From Prevotella sp. (lineage in GTDB: Bacteria > Bacteroidota > Bacteroidia > Bacteroidales > Bacteroidaceae), in NCBI GenBank assembly GCA_017443345.1, contig JAFSNR010000004.1, positions 1 to 40,344 of the forward strand: 40,344 bases of DNA, given 5' to 3'. The notes beneath the pieces were generated by a model. The model had not been told where the DNA came from, ran no database searches, and was given only the letters and a program-made list of their open reading frames with translations. The first letter of the stretch is position 1, and each line of letters begins with the position of its first letter. Of this stretch, positions 19,304 through 34,554 are shown piece after piece. The translations under genes and the position numbers were made by a program.

Positions 19304-19324
19304 GGTCATTGAACATTGAAGATT

Positions 19325-20398
19325 ATGAAGAAGTTCCTGCTGATACTTTTCACATTTCACCTTTCGCTTTTCACCTCACAGTCGCAGACCGTGAGTAGCC
19401 TCTATCAACCGGGTGTCACGAGCGAGGGAGCCGTCTATTTCCTGCCTAAGACTGCCGTCAATGTCACCCTCTTGGTTGAAAAGACTTCCTACCAGCCCGG
19501 TGAGTTCTGTCGCTATGCCGAACGTTTTCTGCGTTTGCGCGATGTGTCGCCTGAATCTTCTGTTTCCTACCGCATAGTCGGCATCAAGCAATATCCTGTG
19601 GCCGTAGCTGATACGGCTAAGCGCTACGCCGTGAAGTTCGATGCCAAGACAGTAGCCTCCAATGTACGTCTCTCTGACGATGGAGTCCTCTTGGCCATTA
19701 ATGCCGATCCGGCCGAGAATGCCTCTGTGCAACGCTTTGTGGCAGCGCCTCGTGAGTCCCTTCCCAGTCCCCGTCGTTTCATGAGCGAGGAGATTCTTTC
19801 GGCAGGCAGTACGGCGAAGATGGCCGAACTGACGGCACAGGATATCTACGAGATTCGTGAGAGCAGGAACCTGTTGGTACGTGGTCAGGCAGATAATATG
19901 CCTAAGGACGGCGATCAGCTGCGGCTAATGCTTCATCAGCTCGACCTGCAGGACCGTGTGCTGACTTCGCTTTTTGCGGGTAATGTCAGCAGGGATACGG
20001 CTGAGTACACTTTCATGGTCGTACCCGATAAGGAGATCCAGCGTGACGTGCTTTTCCGCTTCTCCCAGAAGCTCGGACTTCTCGATCAGGACGATCTCGG
20101 AGGTACACCTTATTATATTATAATAAAGGATCTGCAGACAGTGCCCCCTGCCGAGCCTGTCGATCCTAAGAAAAAGAACAAACCGGTGCAGGGTATCTAT
20201 GTTAATATCCCAGGTAAGATGCGCGTCTCCGTTTCCAATGCGACTCAGACCTTGGTCACAGATGATTTCCCCGCAGGCCAGTTCGGTCATGTCGAGCTGC
20301 TCAGCGGTGCCCTCTTCAACAAACGCTACACAACGCGACTCACGCTCCACCCTGTCTCGGGTGCTGTCGAGCGGCTCGATGCAGAACTTCCCAAGTAG
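19325..20398 (+). CDS. DUF4831 family secreted protein
   Basis: 357 residues from the ATG at 19325 (MKKFLLILFTFHLSLFTS); an upstream TTG at 19316 would add three residues. The signal peptide ends near SQSQ. The mature protein matches in my memory the Bacteroidetes family DUF4831 (YFLPKTAVNVTLLVEKTSYQPG at its start, an Asp- and Ala-rich middle, a C-terminal GQFGHVELLSG). Function unknown; envelope location inferred. The hydrophobic core of the signal peptide is written by a 7-bp tandem repeat (19346-19380) of the same type as the one in the GH3 gene. It follows nnr by 21 bp. Confidence 0.8.
   Translation: MKKFLLILFTFHLSLFTSQSQTVSSLYQPGVTSEGAVYFLPKTAVNVTLLVEKTSYQPGEFCRYAERFLRLRDVSPESSVSYRIVGIKQYPVAVADTAKRYAVKFDAKTVASNVRLSDDGVLLAINADPAENASVQRFVAAPRESLPSPRRFMSEEILSAGSTAKMAELTAQDIYEIRESRNLLVRGQADNMPKDGDQLRLMLHQLDLQDRVLTSLFAGNVSRDTAEYTFMVVPDKEIQRDVLFRFSQKLGLLDQDDLGGTPYYIIIKDLQTVPPAEPVDPKKKNKPVQGIYVNIPGKMRVSVSNATQTLVTDDFPAGQFGHVELLSGALFNKRYTTRLTLHPVSGAVERLDAELPK
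19346..19380 (+). repeat. Heptamer repeat coding the signal-peptide core
   Basis: Units CTTTTCA, CATTTCA, CCTTTCG, CTTTTCA, CCTCACA. They are read as LFTFHLSLFTSQ, the hydrophobic core of the DUF4831 signal peptide. Three units equal seven codons. Confidence 0.85.
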
Positions 20399-29248: not shown

Positions 29249-29252
29249 AGAA

Positions 29253-29280
29253 GTTTATAGTTTAATGTTTATAGTTTATA
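29253..29280. repeat. Heptamer tandem repeat, 4 units, before GH16
   Basis: GTTTATA, GTTTAAT, GTTTATA, GTTTATA. It fills the gap between the binding-protein stop and the GTG start of the GH16 gene. Confidence 0.9.
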
Positions 29281-30384
29281 GTGAAACGATACATGCTTAC
29301 TAGTTTATTACTCTCTCTTGCCGTAGCCCTTACGGGCTGCGGAGGGAGCGAGGACGACCCGACACCAGCGGCCACCATCATCACCGTCTCGCCAGAGACA
29401 GTCAATGCACCCGCTGAAGGTGGTACCTACACGGTGAACGTCACGACGACGGGAAAAGAGTGGGGTACTGCCATGGGCGACGACTTCTTTACCGTAAAGG
29501 CCCAGAATACGGCAGCCCAGGCGGGTACGCTCACCATCACGGTTCCTGCTAATCCTGTGGCCGAGCCCCGCTCTGGTGCTGTCACAATTATGTCGGGTGC
29601 AGCCCGCAAGACTGTTACTGTGACCCAGGCTGCTGCTGAAAAGCCAGCCTACAATGCCCCTGAGGGCTATTCGTTGGTTTGGCAGGATGAATTCAACGAA
29701 GGTACGGAGCTGAACAAGGCCGACTGGACGCATGAAGTTCAGAACAGCGGATGGGTGAACCACGAACTCCAGAACTACGTGAACCACACGACGCCAAACG
29801 GTCGTTACGTCACAGAGTTGATGGGTGGTAAGCTGCTTATCCACTGTTTCAAGGAGGACGGCAAAATCTATTCGGGTCGTGTCTATGCCCACGTGAAGGA
29901 AGGCTGGAAGTATGGCTATATCGAGGCCAGCATCAAACTGCCGAAGGGTAAGGGTACCTGGCCAGCTTTCTGGATGATGCCTGTCAACTTCAAGTCGTGG
30001 CCAGCTGATGGTGAGATTGATATCATGGAGGAGGTGGGTTATCACCCCGACTATGTATCGTCGAGTCTGCATGCCAATGCCCACGTTCACAGCAACAATA
30101 CGCAGGTGACTCATGAGATGTACTGCAAAGGCGCTGAGGGAGAGTTCCATACCTATGCCATCGAATGGACGGCACAGAACATCACCACTTACGTCGATGG
30201 CAAGGTGCAGCTCACTTATGACAATCGCGGATTGGGTCGCGACGACTGGCCCTATAACGATCCCTTCTATGTCATCTTCAACCTCGCATGGGGTGGTGAC
30301 TGGGGTGGCTCGCAGGGCGTCGATGAGAATGCTCTTCCAGTGACGATGGAAGTAGATTACGTGAGAGTGTTTCAGAAGAAGTGA
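29281..30384 (+). CDS. GH16 endo-beta-glucanase lipoprotein (laminarinase-like)
   Basis: 367 residues from a GTG start that keeps the positive N-region (MKRYMLTSLLL); an ATG four codons on (29293) would lose it. Lipobox LTGC, Cys20, followed by GGSEDD. A BACON-like or Ig-like domain covers about 33-117 and the GH16 jelly roll about 129-367. The catalytic motif GEIDIMEEVG gives nucleophile Glu245, Asp247 and acid/base Glu250; the E-x-D-x-x-E form with a Met before the second Glu is the laminarinase (beta-1,3-glucanase, GH16_3) type, not the lichenase type. GTWPAFWMMP and NLAWGGDWGG line the cleft. It cuts beta-1,3- or mixed-linkage glucan at the cell surface. A heptamer repeat precedes it and another follows. 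Confidence 0.92.
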   Translation: MKRYMLTSLLLSLAVALTGCGGSEDDPTPAATIITVSPETVNAPAEGGTYTVNVTTTGKEWGTAMGDDFFTVKAQNTAAQAGTLTITVPANPVAEPRSGAVTIMSGAARKTVTVTQAAAEKPAYNAPEGYSLVWQDEFNEGTELNKADWTHEVQNSGWVNHELQNYVNHTTPNGRYVTELMGGKLLIHCFKEDGKIYSGRVYAHVKEGWKYGYIEASIKLPKGKGTWPAFWMMPVNFKSWPADGEIDIMEEVGYHPDYVSSSLHANAHVHSNNTQVTHEMYCKGAEGEFHTYAIEWTAQNITTYVDGKVQLTYDNRGLGRDDWPYNDPFYVIFNLAWGGDWGGSQGVDENALPVTMEVDYVRVFQKK

Positions 30385-30389
30385 TTTTT

Positions 30390-30417
30390 GTTTATAGTTT
30401 TAATTTTACAGTTTATA
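30390..30417. repeat. Heptamer tandem repeat, 4 units, before GH3
   Basis: GTTTATA, GTTTTAA, TTTTACA, GTTTATA, immediately before the ATGATG that opens the presumed GH3 signal peptide. Confidence 0.8.
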
Positions 30418-30421
30418 GATG

Positions 30422-32721
30422 ATGACCAAAAGCAATATGATAAGGCGCAGGTTGCTGAGAGTGGTAGTGATACTTTTCACTTTTCACTTTTCACTTCTGT
30501 GGCGCAGACACCCGTTTATCTCGATGAGACGAAGCCCATCGAGCAGCGCATTGAGGATGCCCTGAGCCGCATGACCCTTGACGAGAAGATTGCTGTGATC
30601 CACGCACAGTCGAAGTTCTCGAGCCCTGGTGTGAAGCGTCTCGGCTTCCCTGACCTTTGGACGGATGACGGTCCTCATGGTGTGCGTCCTGACGTACTTT
30701 GGGATGAATGGGTACAGGCCGGACAGACCAACGACTCTTGTGTCGCCTTCCCGGCACTCACTTGTCTGGCTGCCACATGGAATCCCCAGATGGCCCGTCT
30801 CTATGGTGAGAGCCTGGGTGAAGAGGCGCTCTATCGCAACAAGAGTGTGATGCTTGGTCCTGGTGTGAATATCTATCGCACACCCCTTGGTGGTCGCAAC
30901 TTTGAGTATATGGGTGAGGATCCCTGGCTGGCTTCGCGTATGGTGGTGCCCTACGTACAGGGACTGCAGTCGAAGGGTGTGGCTGCCTGCGTGAAGCACT
31001 ACGCTCTGAACAACGATGAGGAATATCGTCATCAGGTGAATGTTATCGTCTCCGACCGTGCCCTGCACGAGATCTATCTGCCAGCCTTCAAGGCTGCTGT
31101 GACCGAGGGAAAGGCCTGGAGCATCATGGGCGCCTACAATCTGTATAAAAACCAACACAATTGCCATAATACCATCCTGTTGAACAAGATCCTGAAGCAG
31201 GACTGGGGCTTCGATGGTGTCGTCGTCAGCGACTGGGGTGGATGCCACAATACGGAGGAGGCCATCAACAATGGGCTCGATCTGGAGTTCGGTACTTGGA
31301 CTGACGGTCTGACGATGGGTGCTACGAATGCCTACGACAATTATTTCATGGCGTTGCCCTATAAGCGACTGATTCAGGAAGGCAAGTACACCACGAAGGA
31401 ACTCGACGAGAAGGTGCGTCGTCTGCTGCGCCTCTATTATCGTACGACGATGAAGCGTGAGAAACCCTACGGCTTTCTTTGCAGCGACGAGCATTATGCT
31501 GCCGCCTTGAAGATTGCCCAGGATGGTATCGTGCTATTAAGAAATGAAAAGTTAAAAGTTAAAGGTGAAAAGTCAGGTGCACCATTGTTGCCGCTCGATG
31601 CCCAGAAGAAACAACGTATCCTCGTGGTAGGCGAGAATGCCATCAAGATGATGACCGTAGGTGGAGGTTCCTCTTCGCTGAAGGTTCAGCGTGAGATTCT
31701 GCCGCTCGATGGTATATGCAAGCGTTTTGCTGAGGCAGAGGTCGACTTCGCCCGTGGTTATGTGGGCGACACAGTGCAGAGCTATAATGGTGTTACCGTT
31801 GGCCGTTCTCTCTATGAGACACGTACAGCAGCCGAGCTGACAGCGGAGGCTGTTGAGAAAGCCCGCAAGGCCGATGTCGTGATCTTCGTGGGAGGTCTTA
31901 ACAAGAGCAGTTTCCAGGACAGTGAGGGTCACGACCGTCAGCAGTATGGTCTGCCTTATGGTCAGGACGAACTCATCGAAGCCCTCGTTGCTGCGAATAA
32001 GAATCTTGTCATCGTCAATATCAGCGGTAACGGTGTGGCCATGCCTTGGCTGGCAAAGGTGCCTGCTGTCGTGCAGGGCTGGTTCATCGGTTCTGAGGCC
32101 GGTGAGGCCATCGCGAGTGTCTTGGCAGGCGACGTGAACCCCTCAGGCAAGCTGCCCTTCACGTGGTATGCCAGTCTGGAGCAGTGTGGTGCCCATGCCC
32201 TTGACACTTATCCCGGTACTTGGCGCGAGGGTCATCAGATCATCGACGAGGAGTACAAGGAGGGTATCTACGTGGGTTATCGCTGGATCGACAAACTGAA
32301 AAGTGAGAAACGGAAGGTAAATAGCAATCCGCTCTTCGCTTTCGGACATGGTCTGAGCTATACCACCTTCCAGTTGGGTAAGCTTACAGCTGACAAGCCT
32401 TCGATGACTGCCGACGGTCAGATGACCTTCACCTTCAGCGTGACGAATACCGGCAGCAAGGCTGGTGCCGAGACCGTTCAGCTTTACATCAGCGACAAAC
32501 AAGCCTCTATCGATCGTCCTGTCAAGGAGCTGAAAGCCTTCCAGAAAGTCTTCCTCCAGCCAGGCGAGACCCGGCAGGTAAGCCTCACCATCGACAAGCA
32601 GGCGCTGAGCTTCTACGACGAGGTGAAAGGCCGGTGGACGGCCGAGCCTGGTGTCTTCGAGGCGTTGGTAGGTACGGCCTCCGACCGTCTGACAGGCAAA
32701 TACTCTTTCGAACTTCATTGA
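30422..32721 (+). CDS. GH3 beta-glucosidase, signal peptide out of frame by one heptamer
   Basis: The enzyme frame is open from a TTG at 30388, but that route gives no signal peptide. The only good signal (ATG at 30422 or 30437; MIRRRLLRVVVILFTFHFSL) is in a different frame, and the two meet in a CTTTTCA array at 30473-30494. One extra 7-bp unit would give VVVILFTFHFSLFTSVAQ joined to TPVYLDETKP, close to the DUF4831 signal. As written, translation from 30422 stops soon after the array. The enzyme itself is complete: TIM-barrel with nucleophile Asp in VVVSDWGG (codon at 31231), KHYALNNDE motif, alpha/beta sandwich (VVGENA, VGGLNKSSFQDSEGHDR) and C-terminal FnIII-like domain (VTNTGSKAGAETVQLYI). 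It should release glucose from oligo-beta-glucosides in the periplasm. Two further heptamer arrays code for surface loops. An internal start giving a cytoplasmic enzyme is the alternative. Confidence 0.85.
30473..30494 (+). repeat. CTTTTCA array at the GH3 frame break
   Basis: Three perfect CTTTTCA units followed by a partial one (CTTCTGT). Gain of one unit (7 nt) or loss of two (14 nt) would fuse the signal peptide to the enzyme frame. Confidence 0.9.
31545..31572 (+). repeat. Heptamer array inside GH3, loop 1
   Basis: TGAAAAG, TTAAAAG, TTAAAGG, TGAAAAG. Read as EKLKVKGEK, between the conserved IVLLRN and the PLLPLD segments of GH3, where most members have only a short turn. Confidence 0.8.
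32297..32324 (+). repeat. Degenerate heptamer array inside GH3, loop 2
   Basis: TGAAAAG, TGAGAAA, CGGAAGG, TAAATAG. Read as LKSEKRKVNS between YRWIDK and PLFAFGHGLSYT, again a short turn in typical GH3 enzymes. Confidence 0.6.
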
Positions 32722-32892: not shown

Positions 32893-34554
32893 ATGAAGAG
32901 AACTCTACTATTACTAATGGTTCTGATGGCAGGTCTGTCTCTTTCTGCTGAGACGTATGATTTGCAGGCTATCTATGAGCAGATAGATGATGCCATCGAC
33001 CACTCTCCTGAATATGTGGCCGACTACGAACGGCAGACAGAGGAGAAACGCCTGCAATATGTCAAGGTGACGGCTCCCGAAGAGAAATATCAGCTGGCAT
33101 TCGAGCTCTACGAACGCTACAAGGCTTTCATGAACGATTCAGCCCTCTTCTATATCGATGAGGCTGAGCAGTGGGCTATCCGTCAAAACAAGTGGAATCG
33201 TGCAGGCAACTGTCGTGTGCTCAGAGCCTTCCAGTGTTCCACCGTGGGCTATTACAGTGAGGCGCTCGCCTTTCTGAAGACTGTTAATAAAAACCAGCTC
33301 GACAGCGTCGGACTGAAGAACTATTACATGGCGCAGATGCATGTCTATGGCGAGTTGGGCTATTACTCGAAGATCCGGTCCATGCAGGAGCAATATTTCA
33401 AGTTGCAGACCACCTACCGCGATTCGCTCTTCGCCCAGATGGATCATCAGGATCCCGATTATCTGATGTATCGGATCCAGGAGCTGAAAGGGCGTCAGCA
33501 GTTGGAGGAAGGGCGCAGGCTCAGTGACCAGTGGGTCAGGCATACCAACCCCGACAGCCGCGATTATGCCATTGCCTGCTATTACCGCTGGCTGGTGAGT
33601 GAGGATCAGGATGAGATGCGTTACTGGCTGTCGCAGTCGGCACTCAGCGATGTGCGTCATGCCGTGATGGATCAGGCCTCGTTATTGCAGTTGGCTGATT
33701 TGTTGAATGGCGAGGGCGACCTTGAACGTTCATATAAGTATATCCGTTTCACTTGGGACTGCAACAACCGTTTCAACACCCGAATGCGTTCCTGGCAGAT
33801 TACGCCGATTCTGAATGTGATTGAGAACAACTACCAGAAAGCAGTAGCCCGTAACACGCGTGGTCTGTGGACCTCAGTGGTGGTCGTCAGTGTGCTGGCC
33901 TTGCTGCTCCTGGGACTGCTCTTCTTTCTCCATCGTAGGAACCGTCAGCTCGATACAGCCCGTCATGCCCTGACAGTGGCCAACGACGAACTTTCAACGG
34001 TCAATGGTCAATTGTCAAAGCTCAATGACGAACTCTCAATGGTCAATGGTCAATTGTCAATGGTCAATAATGAACTCTCGGAGAGTAACCGTGTGAAGGA
34101 AGAGTATATTGGACGGTTCATGAGCCTCTGTTCACAGTATATCGACAAGATCGACGACTACCGGAAGATGGTCAACAAGAAGATGAAGAATAAGGAACTC
34201 GACGAGCTTTACCGCCTGTCGAAGTCTACGGAGCTGAAGGAGAAGGAGATTGAGGAACTGCTGCAGAACTTCGACTCCGTCTTCCTGCATCTGTACCCCA
34301 ATTTCGTCGAGGAGTTCAATGCCCTCTTACAGCCTGAGATGCGGTTCCAGAAGCGGGATGACAACCGTCTGGTGACAGAAATCCGTATCTTCGCCCTCAT
34401 CCGTCTGGGTATTGAGGACTCGTCGAAGATTGCAGAGTTCCTCCACTATAGTGTGAACACCATCTACAACTACCGTGCGCGCATCAAGAACGGTGCCCTC
34501 GACAATCGCGAGAGCTTTGAGCGCCGTGTGAAGATGCTGGGACGCGTTCAGTAA
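32893..34554 (+). CDS. DUF6377-type TPR membrane regulator
   Basis: 553 residues. Signal peptide 1-19, helical TPR-like region about 22-315 (YQLAFELYERYKAFM, YYSEALAFLKTV), membrane segment 326-346, then a heptad coiled coil at 367-398 and a C-terminal region (about 400-553) that ends in a LuxR-like helix-turn-helix, DSSKIAEFLHYSVNTIYNYR. From memory this C-terminal half is DUF6377. It presumably senses glucan products through the periplasmic TPR part and activates the adjacent susC operon, taking the place of the hybrid two-component systems common in Bacteroides glucan loci. The coiled coil is coded by a 12-unit 7-bp repeat (33994-34077). It has its own consensus promoter, and its stop codon touches that of the LytTR gene with no gap. 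Confidence 0.85.
   Translation: MKRTLLLLMVLMAGLSLSAETYDLQAIYEQIDDAIDHSPEYVADYERQTEEKRLQYVKVTAPEEKYQLAFELYERYKAFMNDSALFYIDEAEQWAIRQNKWNRAGNCRVLRAFQCSTVGYYSEALAFLKTVNKNQLDSVGLKNYYMAQMHVYGELGYYSKIRSMQEQYFKLQTTYRDSLFAQMDHQDPDYLMYRIQELKGRQQLEEGRRLSDQWVRHTNPDSRDYAIACYYRWLVSEDQDEMRYWLSQSALSDVRHAVMDQASLLQLADLLNGEGDLERSYKYIRFTWDCNNRFNTRMRSWQITPILNVIENNYQKAVARNTRGLWTSVVVVSVLALLLLGLLFFLHRRNRQLDTARHALTVANDELSTVNGQLSKLNDELSMVNGQLSMVNNELSESNRVKEEYIGRFMSLCSQYIDKIDDYRKMVNKKMKNKELDELYRLSKSTELKEKEIEELLQNFDSVFLHLYPNFVEEFNALLQPEMRFQKRDDNRLVTEIRIFALIRLGIEDSSKIAEFLHYSVNTIYNYRARIKNGALDNRESFERRVKMLGRVQ
33994..34077 (+). repeat. 12-unit TCAATGG heptamer array coding a heptad coiled coil
   Basis: Twelve 7-bp units (TCAACGG, TCAATGG, TCAATTG, TCAAAGC, TCAATGA, CGAACTC, then TCAATGG twice, TCAATTG, TCAATGG, TCAATAA, TGAACTC) total 84 nt, or 28 codons. 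Three DNA units equal one seven-residue repeat: LSTVNGQ, LSKLNDE, LSMVNGQ, LSMVNNE, with Leu at a and Val or Leu at d. Confidence 0.95.

Follow-up and report, generated by a model that had tools for sequence, protein, structure and literature searches.

A GH3 enzyme in Prevotella has probably been uncoupled from its signal peptide by the recent loss of one unit from a heptamer array

In a 40,344-nucleotide stretch of a Prevotella sp. draft genome (contig JAFSNR010000004.1; hereafter the window), we found that a signal peptide built on a short heptamer array is out of frame with the GH3 enzyme that follows it. We consider it probable that an array normally of four units recently lost one, thereby uncoupling export of the enzyme. 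The array, the frame break, the four in-frame units of relatives, the intact conserved enzyme and the length change of sister arrays were all seen directly.

Tandem-repeat analysis of the window located an ACTTTTC array at 30472-30496 on the forward strand, with approximately 3.6 copies and 100% matches, which reads in the sequence as three full CTTTTCA units and a partial one. Two overlapping matches to CTTTTCACTTTTCA occurred in the window versus none in 100 shuffles. Perfect runs of period 7 spanning 18 bases or more numbered three in the window and averaged 0.02 over 50 dinucleotide shuffles. On translation, the signal-peptide frame (30419-30565, forward strand) starts at ATG 30419, 30422 or 30437 and is uncoupled from the enzyme; opened at ATG 30422, it begins MTKSNMIRRRLLRVVVILFTFHFSLLWRRHPF and runs for 47 codons to a stop at 30563-30565. 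The frame of the GH3 enzyme, open from TTG 30388 to 32721, is a different one. The array, the 47-codon stop and the Pfam domains agree with a preliminary description of this DNA, in which a signal peptide led through CTTTTCA units and fell out of frame with an intact GH3 gene. Its proposal that the two are separated by exactly one unit is borne out by the orthologous array of genome G222, which has four units and is in frame. Whichever frame is read, three CTTTTCA units yield the same heptapeptide (LFTFHFS, rotated), with no stop on the forward strand. The repeat lies inside the signal-peptide coding region and its length is not divisible by three, a trait of opa-like leader repeats; unit number sets the frame between signal peptide and mature protein, which is broken with three units here, intact with four in G222, G235 and G090, and restored at unit counts of 1, 4 or 7.

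A likeness between this signal core and that of a DUF4831 protein in the window (19322-20398, forward strand; open reading frame, repeat analysis and Pfam) had also been claimed, and it holds: the signal-peptide frame there, at 19316, reads MKIMKKFLLILFTFHLSLFTSQSQ, and its array at 19348-19374 is in frame.

The GH3 body (30499-32721, forward strand), delineated by its open reading frame, Pfam and dN/dS, is intact and comprises Glyco_hydro_3 (102.1 bits), Glyco_hydro_3_C (184.5 bits), both above the Pfam cut-offs, and an Fn3-like domain; its putative beta-glucosidase activity takes its name from the GH3 family and from the preliminary description. Against locus L031, dN was 0.013 and dS 0.205 (ratio 0.064), the proteins being 97.1% identical across residues 37-736 of the searched part, and against eleven more distant loci from ten genomes dN/dS ranged from 0.068 to 0.101. 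The body is under purifying selection and is not a relic. Since the enzyme is conserved and its reading frame intact, the frame break should be recent or absent from some cells. A scan of the GH3 frame found no ATG before 30571; GTG 30499, directly 3′ of the array, is in the enzyme frame and is the only candidate for a near-full-length internal start. Within the enzyme, a heptamer-derived stretch at 31547-31573 (..NEKLKVKGEK.., forward strand; repeat analysis and alignment) and a heptamer-like one at about 32295-32330 code the lysine-rich KLKVKGEK and KLKSEKRK; in relatives their length varies while the frame is kept.

Just upstream of GH3 lies a GH16 enzyme with a BACON domain (29281-30384, forward strand; open reading frame and Pfam). 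A chimeric assembly at the join of the two genes was ruled out, because a G222 match at 80% runs from the last part of GH16 into the first part of GH3. Heptamers of the AGTTTAT/AGTTTAC type stand directly 5′ of several start codons, in the window at 29252-29282 and 30388-30420 and also in loci L014 and L157. Further downstream, at 33981-34079, a TCAATGG-type heptamer array codes LSMVNGQLSMVN within a 553-aa open reading frame (32893-34554).

The same site was then read in relatives, collected by a GH3 protein search (one genome per species, best 80 of 592 relatives) and by a DNA search of 398 genus genomes, of which 300 gave a match, yielding 30 loci including the window's own. The set held 110 loci, two of them cut at the N-terminus and 108 readable. 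Of the readable loci, 107 have a Met in frame 16 or more codons upstream, the window's locus being the sole exception; the 107 were scored by this Met, with reading by eye covering part of them, and are not all independent, since some species were found by both searches. The 48 loci read individually carry ordinary signal peptides that end before PVYLDE or similar. At the G222 site the frame is kept through GTGATA, four CTTATCA units, CTTC and the cleavage region. It is likewise kept in G235 and in G090, each with four units of CTATTCA type of which one is odd. The unit count is thus four in these three genomes and three in the window. Within each array the units are identical, CTTTTCA in the window and CTTATCA in G222; the difference between the two implies turnover. 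Among the GH3 loci listed, a few have other repeats in the signal peptide, all in frame: TTTATCA at L113, period-8 arrays at L036 and L125 and, upstream of GH3 at L093, a signal peptide made from the heptamer TCAATGG (..AQWSMFNGQWSM..). In the nearest genome, G398, the contig begins at window position 30617, 3′ of the array, and a contig matching window 30511-30743 has a different upstream gene with another signal peptide; the 127-base overlap of the G398 contigs presumably equals the assembly k-mer. A search of 100 relatives gave no match closer than those already found.

The array belongs to a wider class, not noticed in the preliminary description, of heptamer-coded signal peptides (..RVVVILFTFHFSLFTSxAQ), which spans 33 protein families. 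The window's own genome (G000, in which the window is contig C189) is Prevotella-like by its named best protein matches and is a 4.16 Mb draft of 204 contigs, with 92.1% completeness and 2.59% contamination; its 55 CTTTTCACTTTTCA matches make up 47 distinct runs; some are intergenic, some code for signal peptides and the rest fall in coding sequence of other kinds. A probe of 23 bases, composed of GTGATA and 2.4 units and allowed at most 2 mismatches, matched 30 of 398 genus genomes; the 62 distinct sites then classed comprised 39 signal-peptide sites in frame, one out of frame (the window's) and 22 of other kinds. A second probe, searched in 30 genomes and matching in 14, was pooled with further stretches and own-genome loci, giving 87 sites, with 55 in frame, one out of frame (again the window's) and 31 other. 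A site counted as signal-peptide type when it had an ATG no more than 30 codons away and a frame of 90 codons or more downstream, whichever frame followed the array. By these DNA probes, which would miss arrays shorter than about 2.4 units, 55 of 56 signal-peptide sites are in frame, although one of the 55, L169, may be no real signal peptide; the sole exception is the GH3 site of the window.

BLASTP of the mature parts placed the 56 sites in the 33 families. A Pfam scan of 20 proteins (the GH3 body, its GH16 neighbour and 18 that carry heptamer signal peptides or belong to such genes) named 19, including OEP, cyclophilin, FKBP, PorV, PorZ, GldN, BatD, DUF4294 and DUF4831, and further M28, C69, GHL10, His_Phos_2, PEGA, Porin_10, glucosaminidase with LysM, and PLD. 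Sequences 5′ of the array agree partially among the 33 family representatives, several having TGG about six codons before GTGATA, and R/K-V before GTGATA; these shared traits hint at copying but could also be requirements of a signal peptide. The arrays of L179, L181, L200, L201, L208, L215 and L222 stop just 5′ of a TAnnTTTGC/TAnCTTTGC-like motif, which we take to resemble the Bacteroidetes -7 promoter element.

A second census used a profile built from 16 heptamer signal peptides. The window's own genome gave 33 matches, 13 of them at E ≤ 1e-5: ten in frame with a Met, the window's own half-match (3.4e-7), one without an evident gene (C140:56241) and L308, which lies in a 903-aa frame and was missed by the follow-up motif. 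Five relatives gave 223 matches; by hand count, 93 among the matches listed reached E ≤ 1e-5. Inspection covered 38 of the 93, namely 30 loci, six with an internal stop, L359, and L356, whose contig ends after a further 66 aa; every one is in frame with a Met, the stop inside the matched stretch having proved in all six cases to lie 5′ of the start codon; the remaining 55 were judged by their listed open frame alone, each of at least 190 aa. Among the weak matches, L357 (G013, contig C88) has a heptamer-like signal peptide whose frame is lost about 65 residues past the start, well beyond the array, one in G222 (C13) has no evident gene, and one in G352 (C309) runs off the end of its contig. 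Because the profile spans residues after the array, out-of-frame cases score lower and this census is biased toward in-frame ones; the probe-based count is the fairer of the two.

Arrays of this family change in length between related genomes. An intergenic array has approximately 4 units in G226 (L186, about 1500-1530) versus approximately 17 in G138 (L195, 1506-1622; 16.7 by TRF). The flanks agree at 87% and 93%, and the small gene beside the array presumably encodes HU, which it resembles. At another intergenic site, the L201 array has one unit more than those of L179 and L208. By a loose per-unit match, 39 in-frame signal-peptide arrays scored four units in 32 cases, five in four, two in two and three in one. 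Pairing of the genome's own arrays with those of G398 yielded few pairs. The own Porin_10 gene has a heptamer signal peptide (L004, 2300-2620) versus an unrelated ordinary one in G398 (L296), with flanks about 85-89% alike; its signal peptide has been exchanged. In the leader, repeats of the GTGAAGAG type precede the own Porin_10 signal peptide, so that heptamers of opposite orientation flank the start codon.

We therefore favour the following course of events. The hydrophobic cores of many signal peptides are, in certain genomes of the genus, coded by a tandem array of a 7-bp unit (CTTTTCA, CTTATCA or a related one) that normally has four units, and the array before GH3 in the window would have lost one unit, most likely by replication slippage. 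Translation from the normal start would yield a 47-residue peptide, and any GH3 would be made without a signal peptide, so that export would be lost; the enzyme would be off, or at most a non-exported product from GTG 30499 or ATG 30571. Gain of one unit or loss of two would restore the frame, and the GH3 array could revert because sister arrays change length between species. Two points weigh against the loss of a unit: a consensus of mixed strains might look alike, and GH3 might be synthesized from an internal start.

The preliminary description had suggested phase variation. The one-unit frame break and the changing unit number of related arrays fit that suggestion, but with 55 of 56 sites in frame there is no sign of frequent switching. 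A contingency locus with frequent reversible mutation, in which the population would always be mixed for exported GH3 as with the opa leader repeats of Neisseria, is accordingly unlikely in our estimate, despite the like anatomy of a non-multiple-of-three unit within the signal-peptide core (opa as described in the available text of PMC3960869). The uniform yet different units of the window and G222, with one odd unit each in G235 and G090, speak for turnover, and earlier work has read simple repeats close to the start of a gene as an indication of frame-shift phase variation (work cited in the accessible part of PMC4692102). However, only one of the 56 probe-found sites is off, and only one of the 108 readable GH3 loci lacks the upstream Met, so that on and off states are not both common among genomes; 32 of 39 arrays have four units; and none of the strong profile matches in five relatives was seen off, in a census that favours in-frame cases. 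Moreover, a high slippage rate is not expected because the units are few, yet the lower limit set for heptanucleotides in the available text of PMC2651432 is 3 units.

An assembly or consensus error, by which the organism has four units and the assembly dropped one, draws support from the draft state of the genome given above and from the tendency of tandem arrays to invite one-unit length errors. Ordinary short reads, like assembly k-mers, exceed the 25 bases of the array, and a sequence error in an array of this length is less likely for that reason; the GH3 gene is also otherwise free of visible defects, and we hold such an error to be quite improbable. Lastly, GH3 could be a natively cytoplasmic enzyme that starts 3′ of the array, at GTG 30499 or ATG 30571, the array being a mere leader. 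The in-frame GTG directly after the array and the conserved enzyme body are compatible with this reading, but the other 107 readable loci have an in-frame upstream Met and 48 of them were read as signal peptides; a start at ATG 30571 would cost about 21 residues of the expected mature enzyme, and the start signal is only putative for either codon. We regard it as highly improbable, and the recent loss of one unit remains the reading that we prefer.

Known repeat systems resemble this one in part. In Neisseria opa, as far as the available text describes it, CTCTT coding repeats lie in the leader peptide, with a quoted switching rate of about 1e-3 per cell per generation (PMC3960869). Both systems place a short tandem repeat with a non-triplet unit in a signal-peptide region, where the number of units determines whether an exported protein is read in frame; however, the unit here has 7 rather than 5 bases, arrays have 3-4 units, nearly all examined sites are in frame, many unrelated proteins are concerned rather than one family, and any switching is, unlike in opa, hypothetical. 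The heptanucleotide repeats of Haemophilus influenzae hmw1A/hmw2A, in 13, 16 and 38 copies, are promoter repeats upstream of the genes, according to the accessible portion of a study that counts heptanucleotides as SSRs from 3 units up (PMC2651432). They too have a unit of 7 bp, and a surface protein can depend on how many copies are present, but they are longer and lie in promoters, whereas the window array is short and within a coding region. TAACTGA heptamers occur in Beggiatoaceae, Cyanobacteria and some (five) Bacteroidetes, mainly intergenic and upstream of start codons, and among repeats of 5-11 nt, heptamers are quoted as the commonest class in most surveyed genomes (PMC4679880, available text). 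As here, one heptamer family is found genome-wide, often near start codons and sporadically across taxa, with sets that differ between relatives; the TAACTGA repeats are, however, described as mainly intergenic, whereas the present array codes a signal peptide, and 'signal peptide' and 'Prevotella' have 0 occurrences in the available text. A literature search, mostly without subscription papers, found no heptamer-coded signal peptides in Prevotella, which is weak evidence of novelty.

The making of many signal peptides by one heptamer in some genomes of the genus is more novel than the GH3 break itself. We tentatively raise the possibility that part of Prevotella remakes its signal peptides from a genome-wide heptamer, whose arrays would arise in, or be copied into, the 5′ ends of genes for unrelated exported proteins and replace older signal peptides, aided by a hydrophobic heptapeptide that is independent of frame; gain or loss of units would act as an occasional export switch, with the GH3 of the window caught in an off state. 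If so, one short repeat would supply dozens of unrelated secretion signals, including those of PorV and PorZ of type IX secretion, and each such protein could lose or regain export by a single slip. As for the GH3 locus, the sequenced population probably does not export this polysaccharide-degrading enzyme. Such genomes would offer a natural system for the origin and turnover of signal peptides and for repeat-driven variation of export in gut Bacteroidetes.
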